Part shown: one piece after another, positions 5,456 through 24,956 of the stretch
How the letters are laid out: each line of letters opens with the position of its first letter
Position numbering within the stretch: position 1 is the first letter of the stretch
Virus record (IMG/VR): IMGVR_UViG_3300006641_000166
Span: 1-25,116 of that record
Length of the DNA stretch: 25,116 nt
DNA from: a virus
Reading direction: 5' to 3' (one strand)
Translations under genes and position numbers: made by a program
Notes under the pieces: generated by a model
What the model was told of the DNA's origin: nothing
The model's database searches: none
What the model saw: only the letters and a program-made list of their open reading frames with translations

Positions 5456-5623
5456 AAATAACTACAAAATAGAAACTTAAGAGAGTGCGGGGGATTCTCC
5501 CCCTGCGCCCCCTCCCCCTCCTAAGGTTCCCCCAAAATTTATCGGCGTCAAGGACCCCTACATATTGCGACGAGAGACTCTTCTGAAGGTTGCCGCCCAG
5601 TTGGTCGGGTGTACAATCCCTCG
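5456..5623. promoter_or_regulatory. Divergent spacer with G/C hairpin
   Basis: This 168-base gap separates the metallopeptidase from the plus-strand endonuclease gene and is the longest gene-free stretch between genes in the window. It holds a perfect hairpin, GGGGGA/TCCCCC with a TTC loop (5489-5503), an unusual polypyrimidine stretch at 5508-5521 (plus strand) and the putative promoter listed separately. The hairpin has no U tract in either direction, so it is not a standard terminator. No phage-type or clear sigma-70 promoter for the minus-strand genes was found. Confidence 0.5.
5590..5617 (+). promoter_or_regulatory. Sigma-70-like promoter for the endonuclease gene
   Basis: TTGCCG (5590-5595) and TACAAT (5612-5617) are separated by 16 bases, each one or two mismatches from TTGACA and TATAAT. 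The ATG at 5624 lies seven bases after the -10 box, exactly where transcription normally starts, so the predicted mRNA would be leaderless. This suggests expression by host RNA polymerase, independent of the minus-strand late operon. It was found by eye and not scored against a matrix. Confidence 0.5.
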
Positions 5624-6010
5624 ATGCCTTCGAAGAAACGACCAAAACGCCTTCCGAGCAGCCGCAAAGTTTCAAAGACGACTCGGTTGAAGGATCGGGT
5701 TAGAACGTGGAAAGCCTACGGCATTTACTTTGAAAGTTACGAAGCGGCCTTGGAAATGGCCGAAGAAATTGAGAAGCCTGAAAAATTTTGCACCATTTGC
5801 GGGGTGACAAACGAGGAACTGAAGAATCGGCAAAACCGTGGGTTGTGTCTTGATCACGATCACGTATCTCACAAGCCTCGTGCGTTCTTGTGCGGTCCTT
5901 GTAATTCTTTGGTTTCATTCTATGAAAAGGGCTTTTTAAGTAAGAACATCTTTATCAACATCGTTCAGTATGTTGAAAACTATGATGCCCTTCGCAAGCC
6001 GTTATTCTGA
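5624..6010 (+). CDS. Endonuclease VII-type HNH nuclease
   Basis: This is a predicted 128-residue protein of the recombination endonuclease VII family (His-Me finger). Motifs are CTIC (residues 56-59), LCLDHDH (74-80) and CGPCN (90-94). The four cysteines form the zinc site and the central HDH carries the catalytic histidine. The N-terminus is very basic (MPSKKRPKRLPSSRK). T4 endonuclease VII resolves branched DNA, while short relatives of this size are often free-standing homing nucleases. It is the only plus-strand gene in the window and its end overlaps the terminase end by nine bases. The ATG at 5624 is preferred over GTG at 5609 because the latter lies inside the -10 region of the putative promoter. 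There is no Shine-Dalgarno. Junction resolution before packaging and homing are both possible. Confidence 0.8.
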   Translation: MPSKKRPKRLPSSRKVSKTTRLKDRVRTWKAYGIYFESYEAALEMAEEIEKPEKFCTICGVTNEELKNRQNRGLCLDHDHVSHKPRAFLCGPCNSLVSFYEKGFLSKNIFINIVQYVENYDALRKPLF

Positions 6011-7762
6011 TCTGAGAGCCGTCGGCTCTTGAATCCAACGGTCGTGTTTCTTATCACGGTCCTCGACGGGCGAAAGTCCCATAAGTAGGCGGGGAAGTCC
6101 AAAGCCGCTTTGAGTGGCCTTCAAGATTTTCTCGAATTGTTCCAAGTCCCTGTTGCGTTTTTCGTCTTCAGGGCTCAACCCAAGGTGCTGAACCAAATGA
6201 GCAACAGCCATAGCGAGTGCGTCAAGACGGTCGTCGTGGATGAGGCAGTCCTTCTCCCAAGTCACGTGGGTCATCTGGTACAGCAGGCTGTAAGTCATAG
6301 TGGAGTCACTTTGGTCGGTTGGAACGGAGAGGTCGTCGTCAAGGGCCTTCTGCGTGAAGGTGACTCGATGCTGATTCAATGCAGGCTCGAGGGCTTGGAT
6401 GATTCGCTTTTCCTTCTGGGTATAGTGTTTAATTGGAAAGATGGTTGTCGGCCACGTATCCGCGAGGTACGGCTTGAGGAGCGTCGTCCACGCACCATCC
6501 GAGAAGTTCTCTTCGATTACAACCCCTTGAACCTTTTCCGATCGAGCGATGTCCGCAAGCCGCTGAAGGTTCTCCTTACTGTGGCCCCCTCGGAGACCGA
6601 TGACTCGAGTAACGAAGAAGTGACCACCAAGGGCGTGAACGACAACGGCAGCCGTCTCGTCAAGCCCACGTCCCGCAGGGTCAATCGCAAGGACCGAGGC
6701 CGTGGATGGCACGTAATTCCCCTCGACGGCCCTAGCACGGTGTAAACGGTCTCCGGAGAAGCCTCGGGACGGGTAATCCTTAATTTCTAGGAACGGCTCG
6801 CAGCCCCATCGCACGATCTCTGGGAAGGCGGCGCTCGAGATGCCGACCACGGAAAGATCGTCAAGTTTCAACGGGAATCGTTCGGAATCGGAAAGCGAGC
6901 AGTCCAATTGAAACTGAAGCGCAAAGCCAGACGATCCGTAGGAAAGTTCTCTTGAAACAAGTTCTTGTTCCGGAAACCGCGAGTCGGTCGGGGCACCGAG
7001 GTTGGACTTGGCTCCGTATTTTGGCTCACTTAGTTCCGGGTTCTTAGCGAGGCGGGCCCGCAGTTCCGGTGCGAGGTCCTGACCGTACACGACCATCTTG
7101 TTTGTCGTCGGGTAGCGCGAGGGCCAGACCCATCGCGAGTAGCCGCGATTGGGGAGAATTGAATAAACCGACTCTTGAGATTGAGGCGTGCCCAAGAAAA
7201 CGATGCGCCCGCCCGGCTTCAAGATTGCGTCGAATTCCTTGACCGACTCGGCCAACTTCTCGCGCAGGATAGGCGTTGCGGAGTTGTTCGGCACCTCGAT
7301 GTCGTCAGCGATGATCCAGTCGGCTCGAGAGCCCGTAAGTTGCCCGGTGATGCCGACGGACTTGAGGGACGGGGCGTGGGCCGCCGGGGCCCCGTAGACG
7401 TCGAAAGAGGTCTTGAGGGCCCGTAGGTCATTTCCCCCGTGCTCTGGGTGCAAGTGGTTCAGCCACGGTATGTCCCGCAAGATCTTCATGCAGAACGTCG
7501 TGAACTGCGTGGCGCGGTCAGCCGATGCCGAGGCCACCAGAATGTTCAGCGACTGATTCCAGTACAGAAGCCAAATGCAGAACGCAGAGGTCACCCACGA
7601 CTTGCCGACGCCACGGAAGGCCTGAATCATCAGGCGTGCCTCTTCGCCCTGAAGTTGATTCGCGATCGCGTATTGTGCGTCCGTCGGTTCCGGAAGACCG
7701 AGGTCACGCCATAGGATGAACAGGAAGTTGCGGAAGTCCTTCAGATCATTGTTCGAGTGCAT
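6002..7762 (-). CDS. Terminase large subunit (T7 gp19-like)
   Basis: This 586-residue DNA-packaging motor protein is the same size as T7 gp19. The N-terminal ATPase has Walker A FRGVGKSW (residues 49-56) and Walker B WIIADDIEVPNNS (149-161), both close to the T7 versions. The C-terminal RNase H-like nuclease has AIDPAGRG with Asp361, a VVIEENFSDG segment and the DDRLDALAMAV motif with Asp514. It would pump concatemeric DNA into proheads and cut it. The start is coupled to the small terminase stop as TAATG. The last codons overlap the convergent endonuclease gene. T7 has its spanin genes (18.5 and 18.7) between the two terminase subunits; here they are absent from that place. Confidence 0.95.
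   Translation of the reverse strand: MHSNNDLKDFRNFLFILWRDLGLPEPTDAQYAIANQLQGEEARLMIQAFRGVGKSWVTSAFCIWLLYWNQSLNILVASASADRATQFTTFCMKILRDIPWLNHLHPEHGGNDLRALKTSFDVYGAPAAHAPSLKSVGITGQLTGSRADWIIADDIEVPNNSATPILREKLAESVKEFDAILKPGGRIVFLGTPQSQESVYSILPNRGYSRWVWPSRYPTTNKMVVYGQDLAPELRARLAKNPELSEPKYGAKSNLGAPTDSRFPEQELVSRELSYGSSGFALQFQLDCSLSDSERFPLKLDDLSVVGISSAAFPEIVRWGCEPFLEIKDYPSRGFSGDRLHRARAVEGNYVPSTASVLAIDPAGRGLDETAAVVVHALGGHFFVTRVIGLRGGHSKENLQRLADIARSEKVQGVVIEENFSDGAWTTLLKPYLADTWPTTIFPIKHYTQKEKRIIQALEPALNQHRVTFTQKALDDDLSVPTDQSDSTMTYSLLYQMTHVTWEKDCLIHDDRLDALAMAVAHLVQHLGLSPEDEKRNRDLEQFEKILKATQSGFGLPRLLMGLSPVEDRDKKHDRWIQEPTALRSE
6015..6029. terminator. Possible hairpin at the convergent gene ends
   Basis: AGAGCC and GGCTCT form a perfect six-base stem with a GTC loop, starting four bases after the endonuclease stop and lying inside the terminase C-terminal codons. 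It has no T run on either side, so it would be a weak terminator at best. It is listed because no other termination signal for the plus-strand gene is visible. Confidence 0.25.
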
Positions 7763-7998: not shown

Positions 7999-8209
7999 GA
8001 ACAAACACCTTTGAAGCAATCCCGAGAATGAAGCCGAAGATTGCGGTAAAAATCCAACGATACCACCAACGCATTCCCTTTATCGATTCCTCAACGTGAC
8101 TCATTCGAGTAGTCAGTCCCGGTTGACCATTGCCTCGAAGGGTGTGATCAATTGAGTTGACCTTTTCCTCAAGTCGCTCGAGGATTGCTTGGATAGTTTG
8201 AGTATCCAT
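7991..8209 (-). CDS. Coiled-coil membrane protein in the holin position (17.5-like)
   Basis: This is a predicted 72-residue protein starting MDTQTIQAILERLEEKVNSI. An N-terminal amphipathic or coiled-coil helix (about residues 3-25) is followed by a GNGQPGLTTRM linker, a second helix, and one C-terminal membrane segment at about residues 50-69 (RWIFTAIFGFILGIASKV). This layout matches XhlA-like and other one-span phage lysis accessory proteins. Its place between tail fibre and small terminase equals that of the T7 type II holin gene 17.5, although the sequence and topology differ. The start overlaps the fibre stop as TGATG. It may be the holin, or an antiholin or partner of the second holin candidate at 1025-1372. 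Confidence 0.65.
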   Translation of the reverse strand: MDTQTIQAILERLEEKVNSIDHTLRGNGQPGLTTRMSHVEESIKGMRWWYRWIFTAIFGFILGIASKVFVHG

Positions 8210-9666
8210 CAATCTTGAACCTTCTGAATCAGAATGTCGCCGTAGTGGAGGAAAATGCCGGGGTTCGTCGCGGAGTTGCGGCATGCGACGATGGCAAACT
8301 TGTCCGTGGTGTTGCTGGTGCTTCCGGTAAGTATCCGTGTAAACGATACCGACACGGTCCTCGCTGAATCAGCCGCCCCGACCACACCACCGCCAGATGC
8401 GTTGGCGTCGTTAAGGGAAGATGCGGTAGTGGGTGGAGTAACATTATAGGTTACCGGAGCCACAATTACTTCTCTCCACGCAGTGCGCGGAGAAGCAATT
8501 GCAACTGCAAACTCTTGACCAGTCGCGCTTGCGATGCTGAACACCAGATTGACAGTAACCAAGTAAGCAGAAGTTGCTGTAGTCTTTAGAATAAACGACC
8601 TGCTTGATTCTTGGTCGACGTCGGTAGAGGTGTTGTTTACCGACACAATTCCAGAGAAATTCAAATGGTTCGCGGAACTGTTGTAATCAAAGTCTCTCCA
8701 TGCTGTCGACGTGTCCGCAGTCAGCATTGGATGCGTGTTTGTAGCCGTCGGGGCAAACTTTGCTGAATACAGAACGTCCAGCATTCCCCCGTTCCGACCG
8801 TACACTTTATGGTTGTTGAGAACCAAGTTTCGACCGTCGACAGCCGGAAGTCGAGCACTACCATCAAGAGCCACCACGTTGTTTGCAGCGGTTCCCGTAG
8901 CGGTCGTAGCAGTTGAAGTCAGTCCGAGATTGGTCCGTGCGGTAGCAGCGCTCGAAAGATCCGAAAGGTTTAAAGACTTTCGCGTGTACCGACCGTCGGC
9001 GTCATTAACCGTCGGAAGGTTAGTACCGCCAGTTCCAACCGTGTAGGTCGCGGCGGTCCCGAGCCCGAGGTTAGTGCGAGCGGTCGCGGGCACCGTGGCG
9101 GACCACGATCCGCTCGAGACCATCAGCACGTTTCCGTTGTTCGCCCCCGTGACAATCGGAAGGCCAGAAAGGTTACCCAAACCGTAGGCCTGAAGGTCGC
9201 CCAATCGAACAGCGTCTCCGTATTCAGTAGGTGCCGCAAGTTCGCTAAGGCGGCGAGATCCCGCAGAGAGCGCGGACTCCGTCGGGTACTCCAGAGACAC
9301 GGAGTCCGATTCAATCTTGTCGGCGACCTCTTGCACCGCAAAGTACGCCTGAATCGAAGCGGAGTCGAGAATCTCACCAGTCACCACCGAGGCGTCCGTG
9401 AAGTTGACAACTCGGTCGTCGACCGATGTCGGCGTCTGTCGGACTACGGTGACAACCTGACCATTACTTGGTTTGGTAATCAAAGTAAGCACAGGCTCGT
9501 TAATACCACCCCACTCAGCCTGCGGCCCGGAGATCGAGTAGTCGACGTCGATGGTTTTAAGAACACCAGCGTAGTAGACCTTTACATGATCGCCACGGAG
9601 AGTGGGAAATGAAAGGGTAACCTCGTCGGTGCCGCTATACGAAAATGAAGTGCGTGCAAAAGGCAT
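8209..9666 (-). CDS. Tail fibre with T7 gp17-type anchor domain
   Basis: In this 485-residue protein, residues 1-150 match the N-terminal domain of T7-like fibres, which attaches to the tail: TSFSYSGTDEVTLSFP, VKVYYAGVLKTIDVDYSI, then QTPTSVDDRVVNFTDASVVT and a helix AYFAVQEVADKIES. The shaft has two copies of a TARTNLGL motif (near residues 195 and 241), common in phage fibre repeats. The C-terminal 190 residues look like a beta-rich head (SSRSFILKTTATSAYLVTVN, HYGDILIQKV) that may bind the receptor. No chaperone-type cleavage site or carbohydrate-degrading motif was seen. It is coupled at both ends by TAATG and TGATG overlaps. Confidence 0.85.
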   Translation of the reverse strand: MPFARTSFSYSGTDEVTLSFPTLRGDHVKVYYAGVLKTIDVDYSISGPQAEWGGINEPVLTLITKPSNGQVVTVVRQTPTSVDDRVVNFTDASVVTGEILDSASIQAYFAVQEVADKIESDSVSLEYPTESALSAGSRRLSELAAPTEYGDAVRLGDLQAYGLGNLSGLPIVTGANNGNVLMVSSGSWSATVPATARTNLGLGTAATYTVGTGGTNLPTVNDADGRYTRKSLNLSDLSSAATARTNLGLTSTATTATGTAANNVVALDGSARLPAVDGRNLVLNNHKVYGRNGGMLDVLYSAKFAPTATNTHPMLTADTSTAWRDFDYNSSANHLNFSGIVSVNNTSTDVDQESSRSFILKTTATSAYLVTVNLVFSIASATGQEFAVAIASPRTAWREVIVAPVTYNVTPPTTASSLNDANASGGGVVGAADSARTVSVSFTRILTGSTSNTTDKFAIVACRNSATNPGIFLHYGDILIQKVQD

Positions 9667-12600
9667 TAGCGACCTTTCTTCTTGTTATACGTATCGATGA
9701 GTTTCTTGACTGTTTCGTCCATTTGTTCTCTTGATTGTCCCTTACCAATGTCATCCTTTTTGATCCAATTTTGAGACATTTCAAACAAATCCGGATCTTC
9801 TTTAAGAAGTTCTGCCCAAGCCGCTTTTCTATGTTTATTAATCTCGTTCGAAAGCGATTTAGCGGCCTCTGAACGCTTGTTCCCGAACCCATATCCATGA
9901 GTATATCCCCTAAATTGAGCAGAGTTAATCAAATTTTTAAGGCTATTGTAACTTCCCATATCAAGCATTTTTTGACCTAGTTGATCATACACAGTGTTTC
10001 CTTTAGGGCCAATTTTTCGAAGATCGAGTTTAGTAAGAGATTCGTGTTGGTCGCTTGTGGGCGCTGAATAGGACAACGTGTCTTCCATGCCGTTATCGAA
10101 AAGGGCCTTTTGCACGACATTCATTTTAGATGCTTTCTTCCCTTGTGCGGGATTGAGCATGTAATTCAGAGCCTCCAAGAAAGAGATATCTGCGTCGTAT
10201 AGCGGATTTTTAATTTGCAAACCTGTGACGCTGCGGCGTGCGCTTACGCTGTTGCGATCGTAATACTTGTTCCACCAGAAATCAGAGAAGGTTTTAAATT
10301 CGCGCATGTACTTATCGTTGTAGGTATTAATAGAGTTCATCGCCATAGAACCGGGGAGCACACCAGAACTAAGGGAACCAAGCCAGCGCGGAAGTTTATT
10401 ATCCGGGTCGTGAGACGCTTCGATAAAGTCGTTGAGACCAGTCATAAAAGACTTATCAAGAACGCCACGAACTAGAGCAGTGTACACAGGTCGAGCCAGC
10501 ATTTCGAAAACTTCAACCTCACCGTCGGACTTGTCGTAAGCCTTCTTTCCTAGTGTGAACATGTCAACAATCATGCTCACAACTCCAGCAAAGGGTTCCG
10601 CAAACTGATAGGAGTGCCATTCGCCACTGCTGTCCCTGATGGACATAGGACGATGGGTCTTAAGCCATTCCTTACGTTCTTGCTGGTCGGTCGGGCCTGC
10701 CCCAGTAATATCTCCGCTATCGGTCACCATAAACAAAGTTATGTAAGCGATAGTTGCGGTAAGTGCTTGCCCATACGCCTGCGAGCGGACAGCGGGATCT
10801 TTAGCGTGGAATCGATTGACAAAATCGTTCTTCCAATCTTCGTCTCCGGTGAATTTAGTAGAACGGCTTCCCACTCCCAACATTTTGTAGGCAACCGCTT
10901 GAAACGGAGAGGCGGCCATTGAGACACCAGCGCCAATAATGTTGCCGGGGATGTGCAAGAACGGGAAGATCACCGCCGCTCCGAAACCGATGGTCTTTTC
11001 AAAGGCCGACGAGTTCGGGTCGCCACGCTTTAGCCTGTTGATCCAGTTCATGAACCGAGACCAAATTCCCTCACGATCAAGCGGGTCCTGAGTGAAGGTT
11101 CCCTCTGATCCAAGGCGCTCCGCCACTCGAAGATTCGAGGTCAGTTCGCCCCACATGCGGAGGAGTTCGTCGTTGTCCTTAGCGGGCCGCCCGTTGTAAA
11201 TGGCAACATTCTCTTGCACCTTTAGACGGAAGTTCCTAGCAGTGGCAACCGAAACTGCCTGATCGTATTCCGGAGTATCTGCCCCAAATCCCTTTGCAAT
11301 CATTGCGGCGCCTTCGACGTTGATTGCATCTTGACGAGCCTCGGCCATAATCCGCTGGTCCGTCATTCTAAAATGACTCGACATCATTTTAGTGTACATA
11401 GCGTTTGCGTCAGCCGCAGGATTCGTAGATCCATTTGCGACTGCACGTTCGAAGAAGTTTGCCTTGATGTGCGCTCGTTGGGCAAATTGAGTGAAGAACT
11501 CGTCCGAAAAGTTATTTACTCTATTAAAAACTTGATGAATCGGGTCAAACCAAGTTTTCATCCAATTAGCGACATCACCACGAAGCGTTCCGGGCGGGAA
11601 TGCTTCACTGAAAATTCCGCCGACGCCGAGCATCTTATTTGGAGTTGCGCCGTCCGCTGTAACGTACCGGACATTCTTCTTAAACGAGTCTTTAGCAATA
11701 GTGAACGACTCTCCAATTGTCGCAAACGCTGTGGCAAGTTGCCTAAAGTGATAGGAAACCATTCTCCCATTTCCGCTTACCGCTCCTCCAGCCATTCCCA
11801 TAGCAATTCGCATAAGAATGTTTCCGGCGGCGCTCATGGAGTTTTTCGCACTGGTCATGGGATTCGACAAAAGATTTGTCGAGTACCAAGAAGCAAACGC
11901 CATGTTGAGCGGGTGGAAAATAAGCGGATTGGAGATGCTGCCACCCGCTTGAGCGACTTGGCGAATATGCGCGGCCATATTCATGATTGTCGCTAGGTTC
12001 TGGCTTTGATTTCCCGCGCCTCCAGTTGAGCCTCCGAATCCTCCGACTCCGAGAACCTTCTGAAGTTCAGCGTGCGCGTCCATCTCCTCTTGAAGTTGCT
12101 TATTCAAATCCGTGATCTTTTGATCGCGGCGATCCAACTTATCCTTAAGAAGTTGAATCTCAGAACGGCGGGAAGCCAATTCGGTCTTCAACTTGTCGAT
12201 GACTTGCTGACGTTCGGCACGCAACTTCTCGAGCGCTTGTTCGCGGACCTCGTCCGCCTTATCAAGTTGGCCCTGAGCCCTTCGTCGCTCGCTTTCGATC
12301 TTCTTCGCGAGAGCCTTGGCCTCCTCTTCACGCTTCTTAGCGGCCTCGGCCTTGCTCAAGGCCTTCTTGGTGTCCTTAGCGCCTTCGGTAAGAAGTTCCT
12401 CAGCAGTTCCCAATTCCTCTTCAAGTTCGAGGACGCGCATTTGCGATGCCTCGAGTTCCTTAAGAGTGGCGTCCAATTCCTCGCCGAACAACCCTACCGT
12501 GTCGTTGGCATACTTGAGGTCGTCAATAAGTTTTTGGACATTCGCGCTAAGTTCGTAAACCTTACGAGAAACCCTAGGCTTCTGGGGAACTTCCCCTTCC

Positions 12601-15600
12601 GGCGTCGGTGTACCCGTTTCCGGAGTAGGAGTCCCAGCCTTGGGAGCCGCAGTCTTAGGCTTGGGTTTACGAGCGCCAGTGGTGGGCTCCGGGGCCCCCA
12701 TTTCCGGAGTCGGGGTACCAGCCTCAGGCGTTGGGGTACCAGCCTCAGGCGCTGGGGCAGCAGTTTCAGGAAGTTCAACCGTACCTGTGCCACCGTTCTG
12801 ATCGTTCGCCTTGGCCGCCGTATCGATAGCGTTTATGGCTTGATCGATAACGGAGGCAGCGGTCGACAGTTCGCGGGCCTTGCGCCGCTTACCTTCCGGA
12901 GTCGCAATCTCATCGGGAGCGAGTTGGAGAATATCTTTCTTCCCCTTACCCTTGGCGCCCTTCTTAGGCTTCCCTTTGGGCGCCCCTGCTTCAGCACCAG
13001 TGCCAGTGCCAGCGCCTTCTGCGCCAGTTCCAGTGCCAGTTCCAGTGCCAGCGCCTTCTGCGCCAGTCCCAGCGATGCTCTGAGCACCTTCTTGAGCGTT
13101 CGCATTCGAGACGGCTTGATCGCTCATCTCGGGGTAAGCCGTGTTGTAGTCGTCGGCGCCGTCGAAGGCCATGTCCCGAAGGACACCGGAACGAAGGGAC
13201 GCGAGAGTCCTGCCCGCCTCCGAAGACATTCCACGGAAGGCGAATCGATGGTACATCACCTCGTTAACGAGGCGCACGATCTTGACCCGATCTTCGTCGC
13301 TCAAAGATTCATAATCACGGACGATGTTCTTTCCGGTAACCTCGATCGAATCAATAAGATTGGCCAATCGACGGCTAGAAGACTCGAGTGCCTTTTTGCG
13401 CGTAAGCATGACCATACCGATGCGGCGCTGGATCTCAACCTGAACCGACGGCGGCAACTTATCGATATCGGTGACAGATCGAATCTTTTCAAATTTACCG
13501 TCGATAAAGATCCCACGGGGGTCGATGTCGTTATGCGTCTTGAGAATATCAATCATCAGTTCAGTCGGGGTCTTGCCGGATTCGGCAGCCATCGCCTCAA
13601 CGTGATTGAAAAGACTTTCATCGGCACGAGCGGTGTTTTTTGCGACGCTTTCGGGAACGCGCTTCGAAAGGTTCTCGGACTCCGTGTACTCCTTCGAACC
13701 GTTGAGGATCGAAGATTCGATGGCCTGATGCGCGGTATTCAGGTCGTTTACGTGAAGGTTTACAGCAGGTTGAGACTCCGATTCCTTAGGGTTTCGGATC
13801 CCGTCCATGTAGTCCTGCACGGCCTTTCGAGACTCGGGGTCGAATGCCGGGGAGCGAGAAAGTAAAACATTTTTGCTAAAAGGCTTCAGAGTACGATTCC
13901 AAGTGTTCGGGATACCCTTGCGACCCTTAAGAGGTTCGCCTTGGAAGTTGAGAACCGACGGCATAGATGCGGTAAGTTTTTCACCCTCCTCGACGACTCG
14001 GTTACCCTTGGCGTCCCACTTAACTTTAGTTTGCGATCCCTTGTTGATCCCGGTTGGTGCATCAACCATTGCGCGACCTTGGCCCTGCGCTTCTTGGAAC
14101 CAAGCGTCAAATTTAGCCCTGTCAAGTTTCCCCTCTCGAATCATTCCTTCAGAATTCGCCACAAGGAATTTAATCGCGGCGTCGAGGAAGTTCGGGGAGA
14201 AGTCCACATTCTGACCAAACCGATCCACCATTGTCTGAGTCGCGTTCCAAAGGATGGCCTGCATCATGGCAGGTTCCGCTTGGAGATTGGTGCCTACAAG
14301 ATCATTCGAAAGATCTTGAGCGGTTCGGAACATGGGTTCACGGACAACGTCATCAGCGGTTGGACTAGTTCCAAAAGTCTCAAAAAGTTGTTGCGGAATC
14401 TTTTCGGAAATGGTTCCAGTCTCCTTATCGTAGGACTTGGTTTGTTTTCCATCCTTTCCAAAAATTGCAGCATTGCGGCCCATTGCGTATCGCGTTTCAA
14501 TTCCGGACCACAAGTCTTGAGTGAATAGGTAGAAGTTTCCGAGAATGTTGCCAGTAAAGGCCCCGACCTTAGGACCAAAGGACGCCTCGATTCCCATCTT
14601 CATAAGAGCACGTGCACGCTCGATTACGATGCTTCCGTGCTCGTCAAGGAACAAGAATCCTCCGACACCTTCACCTTTAAATTTAGAACCTTTACCTTTA
14701 ACTACATCAACCCAAGAAATTGCTTCTTGTTTAAGTTCAGCCGAGATCTTGTTGATGAGTGCAGAATCTACCTTACCCTTAGTTTTTACAACTACAGTAG
14801 GTTCGGAATCCGATTGATGAATTGAAACGGAGACAACCTCAATTCCATTTGCTTTGTAAACGTCAATGATTTCACGTTTAGAAGCCTCGACGGATGCCTC
14901 GACGTTCACAGATCCGTTTTTGTTGCGAACGGTTTTAATGAACTCTTTTTTAGATCCTACGTGAGTTCCGACGTTATGTACTGAATCAGCATCAGTCAGC
15001 ATAGTCCCGGCAACGTAACGTCCCGTTCCGGCATCATCAGCCCGTTCTCCGTTCGGAAGGATGAAGTATTTCGGATTAAATTTTCCACCCCAATTCGCAG
15101 CGCCGGGACCAGCAAGGTTGCCCTTTGTGGAGAAATTTTGAGTGAATACTTCCTTGTCGACACCAAGCACTTCCTTAGCGAAAACTTGCATTTTCGTGAA
15201 GAACTTGATTACGTCATCCTCGGTCGCGGTAGTGAAATCCATCTCGAATTGCTTGGCATAGTCGCCCACAATCTTGAGAAGTTCAGCACCCTTGGGACGC
15301 CCGTCTTCGGAAAGAAGGGCTTCCTTGCCGGGGTTCTTACCGACAAAGTCCTTGACCGCCGCATCGATAATTCGATTCATTCGACGGGAGTTGGTCTCGG
15401 GACCGTTGCCGTGAAGGTTGGCAGTCTGCTTCTTTTTCTTAACCGTGACCCTAAATCCTGTACGCTTGGGATCCAACCGTTCCGCAACGCGACCAGTTTC
15501 CATCATGGTTCGGAAACCTTCGATGGCGTTTCTGGTGTTTATTTCAGGACCGGAGTTGGGAGAGAAGACCCCCAAAAGATACGACATGACTCGAATGGCG

Positions 15601-18600
15601 TTTCCATGCATGTCCATTCGGGCATTGAATTGCTCGTCGGTCTCCGCAGGATTCGCTTCGCCCTTAACAGGTTCCTTTAGATAATTGAATTCGTTACCAA
15701 ACATTGACATCGTGTCGAAGGTCCCCTTGATCGCGTCGGCGTACCAGCGCGTCTGACCCGACGAGATATCATATTCGTGAATCAGGCGCAGGCGCTCCCG
15801 GTACGTATCAAAAAGGCCCTTTTCAAGAGTGTCGTACATTTCAGCGAGAACACGCTTGCCGGATTTGACCTTACTCGGATTGACCTTGATTTCGAGGTAA
15901 TCGGGGTGCTTAAACTTACCTTCGGAGAATTGAGCCTTCAGTTCCGGAGTGGCGTACTCCTCGTTCCACTTAGACGTGGAAGTAATCTCAAAACCGAGAC
16001 GCTTGAGATTCTTGATGTAATCACTCTCGAGTTGACCAGAAGCGCTGTCGACGACGTTGAACGCCTCTCCGTGAATGCCCTTCCAATCCTTCGAATCGAG
16101 CAACGGCTTGATCTTAGAATTATGGATTTTCCAGATCTCCTCGGGCGTATCGACATCCGGGAACACGATAGCGATGACAGAGCGCATCGCTTCCATACCC
16201 ATGCCCTTGAACTTCGGGTTGTTCTGGATGTTGAAAAGGCTTTCTACGTAGCCGTCCTTGCGGATTGCAACGCCAGCCACGGGCAAGCCATCAGGACCCT
16301 TGTCGTTCGAGAGAATGAGAATGTGGTCCTTGTAGAACTCCGCATCGTTAATCGTGACGGTCGGGTTGTTGCCCATTCGAGCCAAAGCGGCGGCAAACTC
16401 CTCAGGGCTGGAAATGCGGAATCCAGAATGGTACGGAGAGCCGGAAGGGCTTCGTCCGTTGTACATCTGGTCCTGAATGCGATCGTATTCTGCGCGTTGA
16501 GCGCGAGTCTTCGCACTCGAGGGGTACTTACGAGAAACGCCCAAAAAGGAGACATCTGGATTAGGCGCATTAAAGTCAATAACTTTAAGGTTGTCGCCGA
16601 ACTTATCTCTGAGAGCCTTTGCCGTCTTCTCCCCTTGGATAATTGGATTCCCGTCCTTATCGACGACAAGAATTCCAAGTTCCGCCATCTTCTTACCCTG
16701 AAGGGCAAGAGCCATCGTCGTCTTGTCGACGCCACCGTTCACGTGAATAGATTCGTGTCCGTTCTCGTGAATAATAATCTGAGCAGTTTGCCCATTCTTC
16801 TGGGCCAAGTGCTCAACAATGGCAAGCATCTCCGGGTCGACGCGATCGTGATAAAGGGCCTTCCCAAGTTCGCTGAGAAGGTTGACGTCGCTGGTCCGCA
16901 CCGGACCGCGAGATGCGTGAACTACGTCTTGCGTCGAAAGTTCGGCTGCGTCCACGAGACCGCGAACGCCTTCGGTCGTGTTGTAGAAGTTACTCCCGTT
17001 GATTGCGATGTGGGCCGAGCGAATCGCCTCGACAATCGAATTGGTCACGTACTCGCCGTGGGCCATTTCGGAAGTCTTAAAGAACGCATCGGTCATCTTG
17101 GAGTAAATCTTAAAGAAGAGCACTTTGGCCTTCGAAAGATCCTCTGCCGGGTCAGCCTCGATAATGCGCTTGACTCCAGCGTCTCCAAAGCGCATGGCTT
17201 CGAAAACTGCGGCCTCCTGCGGATTTACCATGCCGTGCACGGCAAACATGAAATCGCGGGCGTAGCCTTCGCTGATAATTTTCTTGTCGACAAGTTTCCC
17301 GATCTCTGCGGTGATCGCTTCGTACTTTCCGCTGAAGGATTCTGAAATGAGGGCGCGAATGGACCGAAGATCCTTGACGTCAACCTTTCCGAGAAGTTTC
17401 CCGTTTTGAAGGAGAATATCCGATTCCTCCTTCAAATACTTATCGATGATCTTCTTGACCTCTTTCGGAACGGGCTTTCCGTTGATCTTCAGAGTTCCGG
17501 TGATGACCTTCGAAACATGGTCCGCATGGTTTTTCACCATAGCCCGAGCGATGTTTTTCTTGACCGCTTCGGGCACGCTCTTCAAATTAAGAGCCACGTC
17601 CAAGGTCGCATGGAAAATCTCATGCAAGATCGGAGGGTTAGTCAGATCAGAGTTCTTATGGGCTACAACGTCCTTACCACTCTTGATAATGGTGGCGCCT
17701 TCAGCAATGACCGTGATGACTTTATTCAAGGCGTCAAAGTGCCCAGTAACGTCGTCGACGGCGTCCCCGCTCTCAATTTTTTGAGCAAGGTCGAGGTGAA
17801 CCATCCCGATGATCGGATCAGCGATCGCCATGATTTGATTCACGGCGTCGCCAAGACGCATGCGGGAGAACAATCCTAGGTTGATGGATGTGTTCGAAAT
17901 GGTGGATTCATCGCCGACCAAGTCGTTCGCGGAGGCCAAGGCCTTGAACACGTTTGCGCGGAAGGACTTGCGGTACTCTTCGCGAATCGCCTGAATATCG
18001 GGACGATGGAGGTCAATCGTCATCCCGTTACCCATCAGGTACCTAGACTTCGATTCCCCGGCAAAGTCGAAAGCCTCTGCGATATCGTTAACTTTGAAGG
18101 CCACGCCGACGGTGTACGATCCGTCAGAGTTAGCGACCACCTTGACCGTAGCGCCCTTGGTTCGCAGAAGTTTCTGGCTAACGGCGCTCGAGTTCTTCCA
18201 CTTATCCATCTGCGCGAGCAGGTCGTTTCGGTTGTCGGCACGGAGCACCACAGAGGTCTCGCTGTCCATAGCGACCCAGTCGCCCTTGTTAGAGGACTCA
18301 GCGTCGCCATCCGAAAGGGCCGTGTCGAGATCGACATCATCGAGGTTTTCTCGACCGACCTCCCGATTGAGAACCGATCGAGTTACCGACCCTTCTTCAA
18401 AGTTCGGAATGAACTGAAGTTGGAAGTTGGTGAAATCGAAATCGGACACCTCGTCAATTCCGCGAATTCGAAGAATTTCTCGAACTCGATTTCGCGTCTG
18501 GGCGTCGATCTTTACGGTTCCATTCTTCGCAAGAATGTCAGCGATCGATACGGCCACTCGATTCGTTCTTCCGCCAACTTGTTCTACGTAGTGGATGAAT

Positions 18601-20618
18601 TCCGAATTGTTTCGGATCGCCGTAGTAATGGCTTTAACCCAGTCTTCGGGCTTGTTGAAGTTCGGCTGAACTTTAACAACGGCCAATTTAACATTACCTT
18701 CGCCGTCTTTGTACCACATAACGTGGTCGGTACGGTCGCGAAGTTCCTCGGTAAGGTTCAGGCGCTTTCGAGCCTCCGCATCCGTCAAACTTCCAAGTTC
18801 CCCCTCGGAGACCGTAATGCTACGGACTTCAATGAAGGAATGATTTTGAGGAATGAAGCCTTCGTCTAGAGTTCCATCTTGGTTTGGACGAAGGAGGACC
18901 AGATCACCATTGTTCAACTTTTCGTTGAGGCTGGTCGCGATTTCCGGGGTCATGTCGGGAATCACGGGACCAGAACGAGCCGTCGAGGAACCCTCGGGAA
19001 CAGCGGCGTTCGGATCAAAGGAGGTCACTCGAGCCTGATAGGCCTCGGCCATCGTAGCGGCCTCGAGCAGGTCCGCTTCAGTCCCGGTCTCCAAAGCCTT
19101 TCGGAGAGCCTTACGGACCTTCCCAGCCTCGGTGACCGTCTCGTACAGCCACGTGTGCGCGGCGCTCTTACCGTCCACGGCAAAGCGGGAAACAACGGAT
19201 CCGGCTGCGTGGGAGATCCCGTTCTTGGTGGCCCTTCCGGCCATACCAGCGACACGGAACCCAATGTCCCCGAACGGTTCAAGAAGCATACCGTCAATGA
19301 CATTCTTGAAGCGATTGAGAGCGCTGTCTTCGCGGGTGATTCGCCCAGTGATCGGATCGTATTGAGGAGGGCTGCCGTCATCATTCAACCAGCCCAAAAG
19401 CGCCTGCTCAACCTTGGTACCGCCAAGGGTGTAGCCGAGGTCGGCAAAGCGTCCGCTGCTTCCCTTCTGAAACAGGAAGTCGACCGGGGCCTCCGTCGCG
19501 ATGTACTTAGCGGTCCAGCGGGCCGTATCGTATCCGTAGGCCTTGGCCTTGTTGATGGCACCAACGGCCTTCTTGAGTTTATCGTACTTGGAATCCAAGG
19601 CCGCAATGGCCTCTCCAGACGCTGCAAGTCCGGCGCGGATGCGGGTGGCCATTGCGGCGCCTTTACCGCTCAAAGAGAGGCCTTTTAGACCAAGGGAAAG
19701 CGTTCCTCGGGCCGCCAATTGGACAGCACCAGAACCGACCATAAATGAACCGAGTTGTCCAGCAAGGCTAGAAAGGCCGAAGACTTCCTTCGGGCGTGCG
19801 TATCCGGGCACGTTCCTTCCAGTTACGGGATCGATGGTTGAAACTCGAGGCCCACTCTCGTTGCCCCAAGCAATATCCATCGGAATATACCAATCGTCCC
19901 CAGTGATCAAGGATCCGAGGCCCTCGACCATTTCGATCATAGAGGTCCCCATAGCGTAGGCGCTCTTGAAAAGGAAGCGCTGAGTATTCTGAAGATGTTT
20001 CTTACCGACAGCGTAACCCTTGCTAAAGAACCCTCTATTTTGATCCGTAAGTAGATCTGTAAACGAGACGTCGGTGGCGGATTTAGTCACTCCGTTGACG
20101 TCAAGTTGGAAGCCAAGGGCCTCATCGAAGAATCGATCAGACTCCATTGCCTCCTTACCGTAACCCATGACATTGTCGTAGAACCAGTCCCCAGCGGCTT
20201 TCCAAGTGTCGCCGTCGAAAAGACTGGACGAATTGGACATCTTATCGATTTCCGGTTCGGAGAGACCGGAAAGAGCGTATTGGTTGTTAAGTAGCGGGAG
20301 ATCGTCCGTTGCGGAAGGCCCCTTGGGCGCGACAAACGGGCTGGGCCCAAACGGGTTTTCAAATGTGCCCGGAGCGCCTTTAGGAGGCTGTGTAAGGGAA
20401 GAGACTCGGATATCGGAAAAACTCGGTTCCGGCTTGGCGGCCCCCTTTTTTCGCTCGTCTTGAATATCTTCAGAAACGGCTGCTGGTGATTCCGCCGAAT
20501 CCGCGAGGGCTTGGGTATCTGAATCGATATCCGTTTTGGGCGTAGCACCACCCAAATCTACGGAGGCTTGCTGATCGAGAAGTTGTTCAGGATTGATTTC
20601 GGAATTAGGTTCGATCAT
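9666..20618 (-). CDS. Giant internal virion / ejection protein (gp16-like position)
   Basis: This 3650-residue protein lies exactly where T7 has gene 16 (1318 residues). Residues 1-130 are polar and Pro/Ser-rich; 200-520 contain Gly/Ala-rich hydrophobic helices and a TEAPVDFLFQKGSSGRFADL segment seen in large podoviral core proteins. HEIFH at 999-1003 (PPILHEIFHATLD) is a zincin-type site. About 1390-1580 is an acetyltransferase-like region with FKGMGMEAM at 1470-1478. Near 2020-2125 are GNILGNFYLFTQDLW and MMQAILWNATQTMVDRFG, patterns found in phage polyvalent proteins. Gly/Thr and Pro/Glu/Thr repeats (about 2510-2680) precede a coiled coil (about 2690-2850) and a helical C-terminal ejection domain. 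It is probably injected with the DNA to form a trans-envelope conduit and deliver enzymatic domains. No transglycosylase motif was recognised. Both ends use TAATG overlaps. Confidence 0.8.
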   Translation of the reverse strand: MIEPNSEINPEQLLDQQASVDLGGATPKTDIDSDTQALADSAESPAAVSEDIQDERKKGAAKPEPSFSDIRVSSLTQPPKGAPGTFENPFGPSPFVAPKGPSATDDLPLLNNQYALSGLSEPEIDKMSNSSSLFDGDTWKAAGDWFYDNVMGYGKEAMESDRFFDEALGFQLDVNGVTKSATDVSFTDLLTDQNRGFFSKGYAVGKKHLQNTQRFLFKSAYAMGTSMIEMVEGLGSLITGDDWYIPMDIAWGNESGPRVSTIDPVTGRNVPGYARPKEVFGLSSLAGQLGSFMVGSGAVQLAARGTLSLGLKGLSLSGKGAAMATRIRAGLAASGEAIAALDSKYDKLKKAVGAINKAKAYGYDTARWTAKYIATEAPVDFLFQKGSSGRFADLGYTLGGTKVEQALLGWLNDDGSPPQYDPITGRITREDSALNRFKNVIDGMLLEPFGDIGFRVAGMAGRATKNGISHAAGSVVSRFAVDGKSAAHTWLYETVTEAGKVRKALRKALETGTEADLLEAATMAEAYQARVTSFDPNAAVPEGSSTARSGPVIPDMTPEIATSLNEKLNNGDLVLLRPNQDGTLDEGFIPQNHSFIEVRSITVSEGELGSLTDAEARKRLNLTEELRDRTDHVMWYKDGEGNVKLAVVKVQPNFNKPEDWVKAITTAIRNNSEFIHYVEQVGGRTNRVAVSIADILAKNGTVKIDAQTRNRVREILRIRGIDEVSDFDFTNFQLQFIPNFEEGSVTRSVLNREVGRENLDDVDLDTALSDGDAESSNKGDWVAMDSETSVVLRADNRNDLLAQMDKWKNSSAVSQKLLRTKGATVKVVANSDGSYTVGVAFKVNDIAEAFDFAGESKSRYLMGNGMTIDLHRPDIQAIREEYRKSFRANVFKALASANDLVGDESTISNTSINLGLFSRMRLGDAVNQIMAIADPIIGMVHLDLAQKIESGDAVDDVTGHFDALNKVITVIAEGATIIKSGKDVVAHKNSDLTNPPILHEIFHATLDVALNLKSVPEAVKKNIARAMVKNHADHVSKVITGTLKINGKPVPKEVKKIIDKYLKEESDILLQNGKLLGKVDVKDLRSIRALISESFSGKYEAITAEIGKLVDKKIISEGYARDFMFAVHGMVNPQEAAVFEAMRFGDAGVKRIIEADPAEDLSKAKVLFFKIYSKMTDAFFKTSEMAHGEYVTNSIVEAIRSAHIAINGSNFYNTTEGVRGLVDAAELSTQDVVHASRGPVRTSDVNLLSELGKALYHDRVDPEMLAIVEHLAQKNGQTAQIIIHENGHESIHVNGGVDKTTMALALQGKKMAELGILVVDKDGNPIIQGEKTAKALRDKFGDNLKVIDFNAPNPDVSFLGVSRKYPSSAKTRAQRAEYDRIQDQMYNGRSPSGSPYHSGFRISSPEEFAAALARMGNNPTVTINDAEFYKDHILILSNDKGPDGLPVAGVAIRKDGYVESLFNIQNNPKFKGMGMEAMRSVIAIVFPDVDTPEEIWKIHNSKIKPLLDSKDWKGIHGEAFNVVDSASGQLESDYIKNLKRLGFEITSTSKWNEEYATPELKAQFSEGKFKHPDYLEIKVNPSKVKSGKRVLAEMYDTLEKGLFDTYRERLRLIHEYDISSGQTRWYADAIKGTFDTMSMFGNEFNYLKEPVKGEANPAETDEQFNARMDMHGNAIRVMSYLLGVFSPNSGPEINTRNAIEGFRTMMETGRVAERLDPKRTGFRVTVKKKKQTANLHGNGPETNSRRMNRIIDAAVKDFVGKNPGKEALLSEDGRPKGAELLKIVGDYAKQFEMDFTTATEDDVIKFFTKMQVFAKEVLGVDKEVFTQNFSTKGNLAGPGAANWGGKFNPKYFILPNGERADDAGTGRYVAGTMLTDADSVHNVGTHVGSKKEFIKTVRNKNGSVNVEASVEASKREIIDVYKANGIEVVSVSIHQSDSEPTVVVKTKGKVDSALINKISAELKQEAISWVDVVKGKGSKFKGEGVGGFLFLDEHGSIVIERARALMKMGIEASFGPKVGAFTGNILGNFYLFTQDLWSGIETRYAMGRNAAIFGKDGKQTKSYDKETGTISEKIPQQLFETFGTSPTADDVVREPMFRTAQDLSNDLVGTNLQAEPAMMQAILWNATQTMVDRFGQNVDFSPNFLDAAIKFLVANSEGMIREGKLDRAKFDAWFQEAQGQGRAMVDAPTGINKGSQTKVKWDAKGNRVVEEGEKLTASMPSVLNFQGEPLKGRKGIPNTWNRTLKPFSKNVLLSRSPAFDPESRKAVQDYMDGIRNPKESESQPAVNLHVNDLNTAHQAIESSILNGSKEYTESENLSKRVPESVAKNTARADESLFNHVEAMAAESGKTPTELMIDILKTHNDIDPRGIFIDGKFEKIRSVTDIDKLPPSVQVEIQRRIGMVMLTRKKALESSSRRLANLIDSIEVTGKNIVRDYESLSDEDRVKIVRLVNEVMYHRFAFRGMSSEAGRTLASLRSGVLRDMAFDGADDYNTAYPEMSDQAVSNANAQEGAQSIAGTGAEGAGTGTGTGTGAEGAGTGTGAEAGAPKGKPKKGAKGKGKKDILQLAPDEIATPEGKRRKARELSTAASVIDQAINAIDTAAKANDQNGGTGTVELPETAAPAPEAGTPTPEAGTPTPEMGAPEPTTGARKPKPKTAAPKAGTPTPETGTPTPEGEVPQKPRVSRKVYELSANVQKLIDDLKYANDTVGLFGEELDATLKELEASQMRVLELEEELGTAEELLTEGAKDTKKALSKAEAAKKREEEAKALAKKIESERRRAQGQLDKADEVREQALEKLRAERQQVIDKLKTELASRRSEIQLLKDKLDRRDQKITDLNKQLQEEMDAHAELQKVLGVGGFGGSTGGAGNQSQNLATIMNMAAHIRQVAQAGGSISNPLIFHPLNMAFASWYSTNLLSNPMTSAKNSMSAAGNILMRIAMGMAGGAVSGNGRMVSYHFRQLATAFATIGESFTIAKDSFKKNVRYVTADGATPNKMLGVGGIFSEAFPPGTLRGDVANWMKTWFDPIHQVFNRVNNFSDEFFTQFAQRAHIKANFFERAVANGSTNPAADANAMYTKMMSSHFRMTDQRIMAEARQDAINVEGAAMIAKGFGADTPEYDQAVSVATARNFRLKVQENVAIYNGRPAKDNDELLRMWGELTSNLRVAERLGSEGTFTQDPLDREGIWSRFMNWINRLKRGDPNSSAFEKTIGFGAAVIFPFLHIPGNIIGAGVSMAASPFQAVAYKMLGVGSRSTKFTGDEDWKNDFVNRFHAKDPAVRSQAYGQALTATIAYITLFMVTDSGDITGAGPTDQQERKEWLKTHRPMSIRDSSGEWHSYQFAEPFAGVVSMIVDMFTLGKKAYDKSDGEVEVFEMLARPVYTALVRGVLDKSFMTGLNDFIEASHDPDNKLPRWLGSLSSGVLPGSMAMNSINTYNDKYMREFKTFSDFWWNKYYDRNSVSARRSVTGLQIKNPLYDADISFLEALNYMLNPAQGKKASKMNVVQKALFDNGMEDTLSYSAPTSDQHESLTKLDLRKIGPKGNTVYDQLGQKMLDMGSYNSLKNLINSAQFRGYTHGYGFGNKRSEAAKSLSNEINKHRKAAWAELLKEDPDLFEMSQNWIKKDDIGKGQSREQMDETVKKLIDTYNKKKGR
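12070..13080 (-). repeat. Low-complexity hinge and coiled coil within the giant protein
   Basis: Between about 13080 and 12960 the protein runs through repeated GTG/GAEGAG units; between about 12780 and 12590 it has repeats of PEAGTPTP and PETGTPTP. A Lys/Glu/Arg-rich coiled coil of about 160 residues follows (12560-12070). The segment is disordered or rod-like and probably separates an N-terminal enzymatic part from the C-terminal membrane or DNA-conduit part. Confidence 0.7.
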
Positions 20619-23600: not shown

Positions 23601-23887
23601 TTCGGACCCTCGGTACGGAGGATGCCTTCGGCAATTCGAAGGTCCGCCTCCATAGTCTGGGCCATTTCGCGATCTTTCTCAGCCTCGTTTTTATCGATGA
23701 TTTTGGTGACTAGATTGGACAACTTATCAGAAAGACCTGAAAAGTTGATAAGGGGGCTAGACTCAAAGTATCGACTGAGATAGGTCAAGTCGACATAAGA
23801 AGACTGAGCCGATGCCCTCGGGTTGAGCGAGGGTCGGACCTGAGGGCTTTCGCCGCCTTGGTAGCGTTTGCGAGGTTCTGTGGCCAT
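20618..23887 (-). CDS. Internal virion protein (gp15-like)
   Basis: This 1089-residue protein sits between gp14-like and gp16-like genes, the place of T7 gene 15 (747 residues). It is mainly alpha-helical and charged (KIIDKNEAEKDREMAQTMEA, then repeated Asn/Gln/Lys-rich helices), with a disordered N-terminal 30 residues and an acidic C-terminal tail (EGDDEDSSDGKQK). No membrane segment or enzyme motif is visible. In T7, gp15 and gp16 are ejected and form a periplasmic tunnel for DNA, and the same role is inferred here. Composition is uneven: a 60-base line at 23041 has 39 G/C, one at 21601 has 22. The assignment rests on position, size class and coupling (TAATG at both ends). Confidence 0.75.
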   Translation of the reverse strand: MATEPRKRYQGGESPQVRPSLNPRASAQSSYVDLTYLSRYFESSPLINFSGLSDKLSNLVTKIIDKNEAEKDREMAQTMEADLRIAEGILRTEGPKMESLADELARQDEFGGEISLHEPEKKPRTGMLTDRDVEVLRSKGGERIQRRLDDPRYADAFDLRLAILHADSFGEQETSKVLINLPEYLDELRNQPENRERFNFEADAQAYVTNHFNSLPENHALNSYPGAKDLYISKVLGSAGYRSLVNSAGGANRKTAAIGVNSEAGRGLLEAVDSGAYVDKSTKPEEIAALDATVDPFLAKMRVMSDQLGQPPNAATYSTSIANAVMFKYADDYEKQHDSFMRLRQYFFYKGKKDPVYGELAGILGEMGRKAFERMNQLESNFGFENPQDARNFLTHLSSDIMENFDPEDAFFTKPDSEQRQDIQAWLLKSSPDILKRIGFDGKDGSIRMFSANAPQIEAMRNAYVASFAEVNNYGITAANRRTFTEINKTATKLSANGSMPISDLVVAIAEDSNKKVPASRRVDIPQLLNYYENIDQTNLTNGKLFSQAAKNLKSEFGSELKGSTSNVATAIYQEYKSIAEKFPKAAGRESLSIEDIQKAQNQAIQNVRQRAIESSNSHVSKFNEELSQLFMPNEPTNLNPVKIDSAKQLLAKFDKLLKIPAYSQSQELGQMRERLNTSINSVRIEDKRDDKNIKGIKESNKQINDKDDETGLLNSWVTLPEKMSAVRFTEGLMAGDKKDPKVDELVKALGNSKDKTQLANNVFQLSFKRDDSIYSQVLSPNPVSIFDPNRLPKETSTDLPRLPHEEAIAFGKIAKNVKPKSNGDLNKSISTQKSNVAARLRVENPNGVFGQLAARVRAASGNVGSFSFDRTNKLKRELIIHGVSRYIIGDRHETPLGEEYAKHINAAEFGYNKDDKKRTGTAQTPDPLGRLSRASRKGEITNLMDEIFPPFARNAIQEGELLIGFGDEGPDPFQNFETMRYTIRKELEEELKRVEGEFSPFDQQAIKNPAAREAAIDNAMNYLFAGFINPQNTYLDPKSGFTAESAFFSRQIYGAYLVQKQGSKSTPTTQGLPYKEGDDEDSSDGKQK

Positions 23888-24453
23888 TACTTACTACTAA
23901 AAACGTCGCCCCAAGTTTTCTTACCACCAATCTGAGCCGCAGTCGTAAGGCCGCCAATCGCTCCGTTCAGTAGGGAGCCGAACAGGTTGGGCCTTCGGGC
24001 GGGCGGTCGGTAGCCGGATTGAACCCGACCAACGGTTTCCGCTTCGATTCCCTTCATGTTGTTAAGGGCCGCCGACTTTTCAAATTCGTACTGAATCAAT
24101 GCGTTTTCGTGGCCCTTAAGCATCGCCTGCTTAAGGTCTGTGACCACGCTCGTAGCAGCCGATCCACCGATACCAGCCTCAGTGGCTGAGACGGCGGAGA
24201 ACCCGATGCGCTTTTCGAACTCTCGGCTAATCGAGTCCATCTCCGTGCGGGCCGTGGTCTCGGCCTCGGAAATTCGTCTAACCATCGAAGCGTATTGGAA
24301 CCGAGCGCTGTCCTCAGCGTTCTTCTTGTTCAACTCGTACATCTGCTTGTTGAACTTGTCCTCGGCCTTCGCTGCGGCGGTCCCGGACATATAGTCCGCC
24401 ATCGAGGACCCCATTTGAAGTCCAGCGAGAGCAACGGCGGGTCCGACGCACAT
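23887..24453 (-). CDS. Internal virion protein (gp14-like)
   Basis: This 188-residue protein is close in size to T7 gp14 (196). The N-terminus is Ala/Gly-rich and mildly hydrophobic (CVGPAVALAGLQMGSSMADY), followed by a long helix rich in Gln, Asn, Lys and Glu with an ARFQYASM..RISEAE segment, a Gly/Ala patch (ATEAGIGGSAATSVV) and a C-terminal GLTTAAQIGGKK segment. This pattern fits the small podoviral ejection protein that inserts in the outer membrane. GGGAG-type sequence (GGGAGT) lies eight bases before the ATG, and the start overlaps the preceding stop as TAATG. The assignment is by synteny plus pattern. Confidence 0.8.
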   Translation of the reverse strand: MCVGPAVALAGLQMGSSMADYMSGTAAAKAEDKFNKQMYELNKKNAEDSARFQYASMVRRISEAETTARTEMDSISREFEKRIGFSAVSATEAGIGGSAATSVVTDLKQAMLKGHENALIQYEFEKSAALNNMKGIEAETVGRVQSGYRPPARRPNLFGSLLNGAIGGLTTAAQIGGKKTWGDVFSSK

Positions 24454-24956
24454 TAGAGTTTACTCCCATCGATGACGAACTTGATGAAATTCCGGCCCGA
24501 AATGACCTTATTCTCAATGAGTTCAGCACCGCAGTGCTTAAGCCAGCGCAGGGCCGGGGCGTTATCTTCCCAAACCCAGTTCATCCCGGTCTTCCCGTCC
24601 ATGATGTGCTTCATCCACGGGCGGGACCAACGCAAGAATTCGAGGGGATTAGAGTAGACCCAATCCGAACCGACGGCGCAGATGAGGTAATCAGCGTCCG
24701 CCTTAACTTCACCGAAACGAGTGGCCCCAAACATCATTTCAACCTTGCCGTCAACAACAATTGACCAGCAGGGCTCGAGGGCCTTGTGCAAAATCTCAAG
24801 GGCCTCCTCGCCAGAGACGCTGAGGAATGCCTGAATTTCCACCATATCGGCAGATCGGATTCGTGGCCCGAGGTCGACGATGTCTGGCTTCCGGGAGCGC
24901 CGAATCGTCACATTGGGTAGCGGGTGCCTCTGGGGTTTGCTAACTTTAGTTCCCAT
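24453..24956 (-). CDS. gp13-like acyltransferase-fold virion assembly protein
   Basis: This 167-residue protein is placed like T7 gene 13 between the nozzle and gp14. Features include NVTIRRSRKPDIVDLGPRI, a PCWSIVVDGKVEMMFGA strand pair, and NWVWEDNAPALRWLKHCGAE, which is the C-terminal 'N..ALRWLK..GA' pattern of GNAT-fold proteins and is shared with the T7 gp13 family. The motif A acetyl-CoA loop (Q/RxxGxG/A) is not evident, so catalysis is doubtful. The ATG at 24956 has AGGA five bases upstream; a GTG at 24911 that overlaps the gp12 stop is an alternative start. With the chosen start, 49 bases overlap the nozzle gene. Confidence 0.75.
   Translation of the reverse strand: MGTKVSKPQRHPLPNVTIRRSRKPDIVDLGPRIRSADMVEIQAFLSVSGEEALEILHKALEPCWSIVVDGKVEMMFGATRFGEVKADADYLICAVGSDWVYSNPLEFLRWSRPWMKHIMDGKTGMNWVWEDNAPALRWLKHCGAELIENKVISGRNFIKFVIDGSKL

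Follow-up and report, generated by a model that had tools for sequence, protein, structure and literature searches.

In most accounts, the proteins that T7-like podoviruses eject serve to build a channel for DNA. The locus analysed here raises the question of whether such a protein can also carry enzymes into the host: in the window (the whole stretch of 25,116 bases, a virus record), the place of T7 gene 16 is held by one reading frame of 3650 codons, 2.77 times the length of T7 gp16 (1318 aa), and the domains recognised within it are of disparate kinds. We read this gene as an ejection protein D of a T7-like podovirus that has been enlarged into a carrier of polyvalent effector domains, and would give this reading a probability of roughly 0.6.

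The position of the gene is clear. Minus-strand genes follow the order gp13-like, gp14, gp15 slot, the 3650-aa gene, tail fibre, two small ORFs and TerL, which is T7 13-14-15-16-17-(17.5)-(18)-19; the gene also stands where phrog_6651-type proteins stand in virion operons, after gp14 and gp15 and before the fibre and TerL. With TerL 42% identical to T7 gp19, the original prediction of a gene in the T7 gene 16 slot, almost three times longer than its T7 counterpart, is borne out. The closest isolates by TerL are Roseobacter podoviruses (~48%), and a TerL search of viral contigs returned nothing beyond this phage itself and a single remote contig. The neighbouring gp15-slot protein, which gave no family match in Pfam, PHROGs and NCBIfam scans, is longer than T7 gp15 (747 aa) and diverges over part of its length in the contig L003.

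The reading frame is not an assembly artefact, because contigs L002, L004 and L005 match parts of the window at 99.9% and the independent contig L003 carries an intact 3650-aa ORF at 94% nucleotide identity. It shares one base with each neighbouring gene, as in a tightly packed virion operon. Between the window and L003, dS is 0.214 and dN 0.019 over the whole ORF, residues 1201-1400 show 29 synonymous and 0 nonsynonymous differences, and indels are confined to a low-complexity linker (residues ~2505-2690). The gene is thus genuine and under purifying selection along its full length, inserts included. The separate low-complexity and coiled-coil spacer that had been proposed is present, consisting of this Ala/Gly/Thr/Pro linker and the coiled coil that follows it (Table 1).

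Table 1. Features of the virion operon and of the 3650-aa protein in the window (all on the minus strand; residues refer to the 3650-aa protein)
Feature	Residues	Window positions	Strand	Basis
Terminase large subunit TerL (gp19)		6002..7762	-	Pfam; 42% identity to T7 gp19
Tail fibre with T7 N-terminal domain (gp17 slot)		8209..9666	-	PF03906, E 2e-13
Internal virion (ejection) protein D homologue, whole gene		9666..20618	-	3650 aa, ATG start, one open frame
C-terminal core module	~2905-3650	9666..11906	-	phrog_6651, hhalign and alignment
Coiled coil	~2690-2855	12054..12551	-	weak SMC/Rad50-type coiled-coil matches
Low-complexity linker, Ala/Gly/Thr/Pro	~2505-2690	12549..13106	-	composition
DUF7178-like domain, second half	2013-2130 (2013-2056 with profile excluding own contigs)	14229..14582	-	profile
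phrog_11722-like domain, N-terminal block placed second	1879-1984	14667..14984	-	profile
phrog_11722-like domain, C-terminal block placed first	1823-1861	15036..15152	-	profile
DUF7178-like domain, first half	1665-1745	15384..15626	-	profile excluding the window's own contigs
RimI-type GNAT acetyltransferase-like domain	1397-1586	15861..16430	-	profile, AlphaFold and VIA-align
Candidate zincin metallopeptidase region	~955-1200	17019..17756	-	strand motif and HEIFH; borderline profile evidence
HEIFH motif	999-1003	17610..17624	-	motif; helix in low-confidence model
N-terminal core module, matched part	370-449	19272..19511	-	hhalign vs 23 relatives, E 1.3e-4
gp15-slot protein, 1089 aa		20618..23887	-	position only
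gp14 homologue		23887..24453	-	Pfam PF24072, E 2.7e-16
gp13-like internal virion protein		24453..24956	-	phrog_308, E 1e-24

The two ends of the protein assign it to a family. Its C-terminal module matches phrog_6651 (hmmscan E 1e-20) as well as the profile built from 23 relatives (615 columns, hhalign E 8e-43); among the matching proteins are the Roseobacter and Synechococcus podoviral versions of internal virion protein D. The hhalign match of residues 370-449 to phrog_6651-family relatives is weak, yet lies at the expected place; the N-terminal module probably spans residues ~130-460. A core-protein C-terminus had been expected, and one of the T7 gp16 kind: the former expectation stands, and the resemblance turns out to be to the Syn5/Roseobacter type of internal virion protein D, since neither blastp nor hhalign (P 0.14), run with a single T7 sequence, detects similarity to T7 gp16 itself. 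By homology, then, the protein belongs to the phrog_6651 family in a T7 slot, as T7 gp16 is not detectably similar to the relatives' profile. T7 gp16 shares the gene position and a presumed ejectosome role; its transglycosylase match is absent here, no Pfam match to an N-terminal lytic transglycosylase domain being obtained with the whole protein or with segments. The Syn5-, P60- and Roseobacter CRP-type proteins share gene position and both end modules, but measure 1142-1415 aa in the isolates compared, lack the ~2450-aa middle and have no detected GNAT.

Standard searches say little about this middle. Scans of the whole protein against Pfam, PHROGs and NCBIfam recovered no enzyme, only phrog_6651, phrog_11722 and coiled-coil artefacts; segment-wise profile scans likewise gave no enzyme match, a PDB sequence search no match, and tblastn of the region against phages and plasmids no significant match. 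For several stretches no relatives were found.

The best-supported enzyme domain is the acetyltransferase-like one, which had been foreseen at about residues 1390-1580 and is now placed at 1397-1586. Its family was gathered with the pattern GF-x7-[WF]N-x-EYAP, yielding 111 ORFs, most of them >1000 aa, and a profile of 65 representatives finds the window protein at E 7.5e-6 for 40,000 sequences (best of 300 shuffles, 4.9). The collecting pattern is similar to the motif in the window itself, so conservation there cannot count as independent evidence, and the other half of the domain was examined apart: this first half, unused in collecting, scores 55.5 in hhalign vs 22.6 for the best of 200 shuffles. 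One family member reaches Pfam Acetyltransf_10 (E 9e-4). An AlphaFold model built with the family alignment has pLDDT 82-93 in the core, and acetyltransferases are listed for it by VIA-align, the top two being RimI (Z 11.5, rmsd 2.7 and 3.0, 140 aligned residues), in agreement with the fold predicted near residue 1470; the model was also searched with Foldseek. The acetyltransferase-like motif KFKGMGMEAM (residues 1469-1478) begins with a near-canonical CoA loop, KFKGMG (1469-1474), in which Lys replaces the Gln/Arg of Q/R-x-x-G-x-G/A. Tyr1534 aligns with a position at which 98% of family members have Tyr. At two invariant positions of the family, within its EYAP..W motif, the window protein departs, with Thr1557 replacing Pro and Leu1560 replacing Trp, and an insertion precedes beta 5. 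Family membership and predicted fold together identify the segment as a GNAT. GNATs of polyvalent proteins have been described as RimI-like and likely protein-modifying (Iyer et al. 2017, PMC5512222). The predicted enzyme would most likely acetylate a host protein.

Downstream of the GNAT, two further homologies are arranged one inside the other. A DUF7178-like domain is recognised solely by a profile built on L113-type relatives (E 1.7e-4 after exclusion of the window's own contigs; best of 200 shuffles, 21), and is so named because the Pfam model itself (PF23802) gives no match in the window's own record. Between its two collinear halves sits a phrog_11722 match (E 6e-9) split into two stretches in reversed order. 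The same domain is continuous and in the usual order in 67 of 69 other members and permuted in none of the 69, so that by these alignments it is circularly permuted in the window alone among the members compared. It is tempting to suppose that a permuted domain, whose ends would lie close together, is suited to insertion into another domain. The phrog_11722-like family is embedded in 18 ORFs >500 aa, some of which also bear ART-PolyVal, LPD37, LPD38 or DUF7178. Its solo members are small phage proteins (L090 2193-2564, L011 3716-4105, L091 2746-3246); in Achromobacter phage Axy23 such a protein is the third annotated ORF, near the left end and in an early-region position, and in an Acinetobacter phage one is annotated as "structural protein".

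A zincin site at HEIFH had also been proposed. The motif is indeed at residues 999-1003, and the fold around it is at present a candidate. Coincidence is a rival account of the motif and would leave the GNAT and the other two domains as the only cargo: the zincin HMM gives 8.6 bits, near the mean of shuffles that keep HEIFH (6.5) and well inside their range (maximum 20.5), and the AlphaFold model of residues 880-1225 is mostly helical, with a mean pLDDT of 50 that is too poor to judge a zincin fold. Against this, the composition of the whole 3650-aa protein predicts only 0.055 HExxH motifs by chance, the strand motif upstream of HEIFH fits other phage zincins, the hhalign score is higher than in 198 of the 200 HEIFH-kept shuffles and higher than in all 200 context-kept ones, and relatives carry zincins in the same region. 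Coincidence thus seems rather unlikely, and a predicted zincin within residues ~955-1200 quite probable, mainly on account of the low chance expectation and the zincins of relatives. The region shows no obvious canonical third zinc ligand, for which Asp1122 or His1128 are candidates, and the Pfam MPTase-PolyVal model gives no match in the window's own record. Structural matches of the 880-1225 model are unrelated helical bundles (Z <6.5) and are not interpretable.

Comparison with relatives shows that variable cargo is general in the family and that the window protein is its extreme, because relatives carry differing cargo between the same end modules. The span between these modules is 329-999 aa in 23 relatives vs ~2450 aa here, and among 89 ORFs with a homologous C-terminal module the runner-up in length has 1952 aa. 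Zincins lie upstream of that module in 18 of the 89, many of which are fragments; they are of the HELWH, HEILH and HEATH types, and a further type, HEGTH, occurs in L052. A search for an isolate whose core protein carries a HELWH-type zincin was unsuccessful. In L070 an ART-PolyVal domain above the curated cut-off lies between the end modules of a protein that also has a HELWH motif, L074 has a methyltransferase-like domain at residues ~600-800 (Pfam E 5e-5, below the cut-off), and the cargo region of L057 gives helix-turn-helix matches. Proteins similar to the methyltransferase-like stretch of L074 occur in Vibrio phages (~250 kb) and in a 485-kb phage.

This variation bears on a different account, in which the middle serves virion assembly or ejection, as packaging signal, self-processing unit or part of core architecture, the zincin-like part maturing or packaging the protein and the GNAT modifying virion proteins or being structural. 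Zincins are the commonest cargo in relatives, in N4, encapsidation depends on the metallopeptidase-domain region, and P1 DdrB undergoes cleavage ahead of packaging (PMC5512222). Yet relatives manage with 329-999 aa in the middle, cargo varies among them whereas the end modules persist, and a RimI-type acetyltransferase or an ADP-ribosyltransferase at this place is hard to explain by assembly alone; we consider a purely virion-directed role unlikely, marginally more so than a chance HEIFH. Least probable is that GNAT and zincin have no activity and persist as scaffolds, serving as spacers or binding modules, as the substitutions at Thr1557 and Leu1560 and the missing evident third zinc ligand might indicate, against the near-canonical CoA loop K-x-x-G-x-G, the retained Tyr1534 and the strong purifying selection.

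Under the preferred reading of an enlarged ejection protein D, the conserved end modules would fulfil the structural role in core and ejectosome, and the middle of ~2450 residues would be cargo, comprising the GNAT, the nested DUF7178-like and phrog_11722-like domains, probably a zincin, and orphan stretches, joined to the C-terminal module through the flexible linker and the coiled coil. After ejection, T7 gp16 spans the membrane, with gp16-N in the periplasm and gp16-C reaching the cytoplasm and binding DNA (PMC8954989). This topology is borrowed, as no direct homology to T7 gp16 is detected; by analogy, the protein would be ejected from the capsid earlier than the DNA, with a part of it passing into the host cytoplasm. 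If its C-terminal module reaches the cytoplasm as in T7, the middle would end up at the membrane or past it and could pass into the cell as well, either held by linker and coiled coil or released by the zincin, which might cleave the cargo loose or attack a target. We infer that the protein is packaged and delivered in this manner and that its enzymes are active on host targets: the cargo would come into play prior to phage transcription, with the GNAT acetylating one or more host proteins, and host proteins may in this way be disarmed.

The polyvalent proteins known from phages and plasmids, for which injection alongside the DNA has been predicted, likewise combine several unrelated domains in one giant polypeptide, include RimI-like GNATs and occur in a virion context (PMC5512222). 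By homology, at least two domains of disparate kind (GNAT, DUF7178-like, phrog_11722-like) are joined here in one polypeptide, and the latter two are common to giant phage proteins bearing ART-PolyVal, LPD37 and LPD38, so the predicted polyvalent character is upheld by shared domains. Unlike in the proteins described in PMC5512222, a paper from which the terms "internal virion" and "core protein" are absent, the window's cargo is built into a podoviral core protein between two structural modules; two known kinds, core protein and polyvalent effector protein, are thus joined in one. A giant ejected protein of similar size is the N4 virion RNA polymerase (about 3500 aa; PMC12633501), reported to contain a zincin domain (PMC5512222). 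An RNA polymerase domain finds no PHROG or PDB sequence match in the 3650-aa protein. The N4 virion RNA polymerase PHROG (phrog_2206, positions ~2025-2250 of 3406) is matched by the zincin-bearing middles of two relatives, L044 and L052, a hint at a zincin module common to podoviral core proteins and N4-type virion RNA polymerases.

It is intriguing to hypothesize, at slightly less than even odds, that a widespread group of podoviruses possesses, in internal virion protein D, a general delivery platform not described so far, in which conserved ejectosome modules flank exchangeable zincins, ADP-ribosyltransferases, methyltransferases and acetyltransferases, and of which the window protein, acetylating host proteins before phage transcription and holding a nested circularly permuted domain, would be the largest found. 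A text search of open-access literature returned no paper naming both internal virion proteins and polyvalent proteins. Should the core protein of T7-like podoviruses carry exchangeable enzymes too, takeover of the host would begin ahead of all phage transcription, as is the case for the N4 virion RNA polymerase. Through the cargo region, such effectors could be located by sequence in many environmental podoviruses, and the region would be a natural scaffold for testing protein delivery via the ejectosome.

Several other features of the window deserve mention. Positions 1-650, also present in L004 and L005, are GC-rich and repeat-laden, with no evident gene and with 9-, 17- and 26-base units around 266-338, and could be a terminal or regulatory region. 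The minus-strand stretch at 3028-4050 encodes collagen-like repeats (a stretch of 11 protein letters), its DNA containing an 18-base unit 12 times. A separate small SprT-like protein with HELCH is encoded at 5063-5455 on the minus strand (Pfam SprT-like E 7e-4, below the cut-off; phrog_1233 E 1e-8), and a recombination endonuclease VII homologue (PF02945) at 5609-6010 on the plus strand, opposite to the virion operon.
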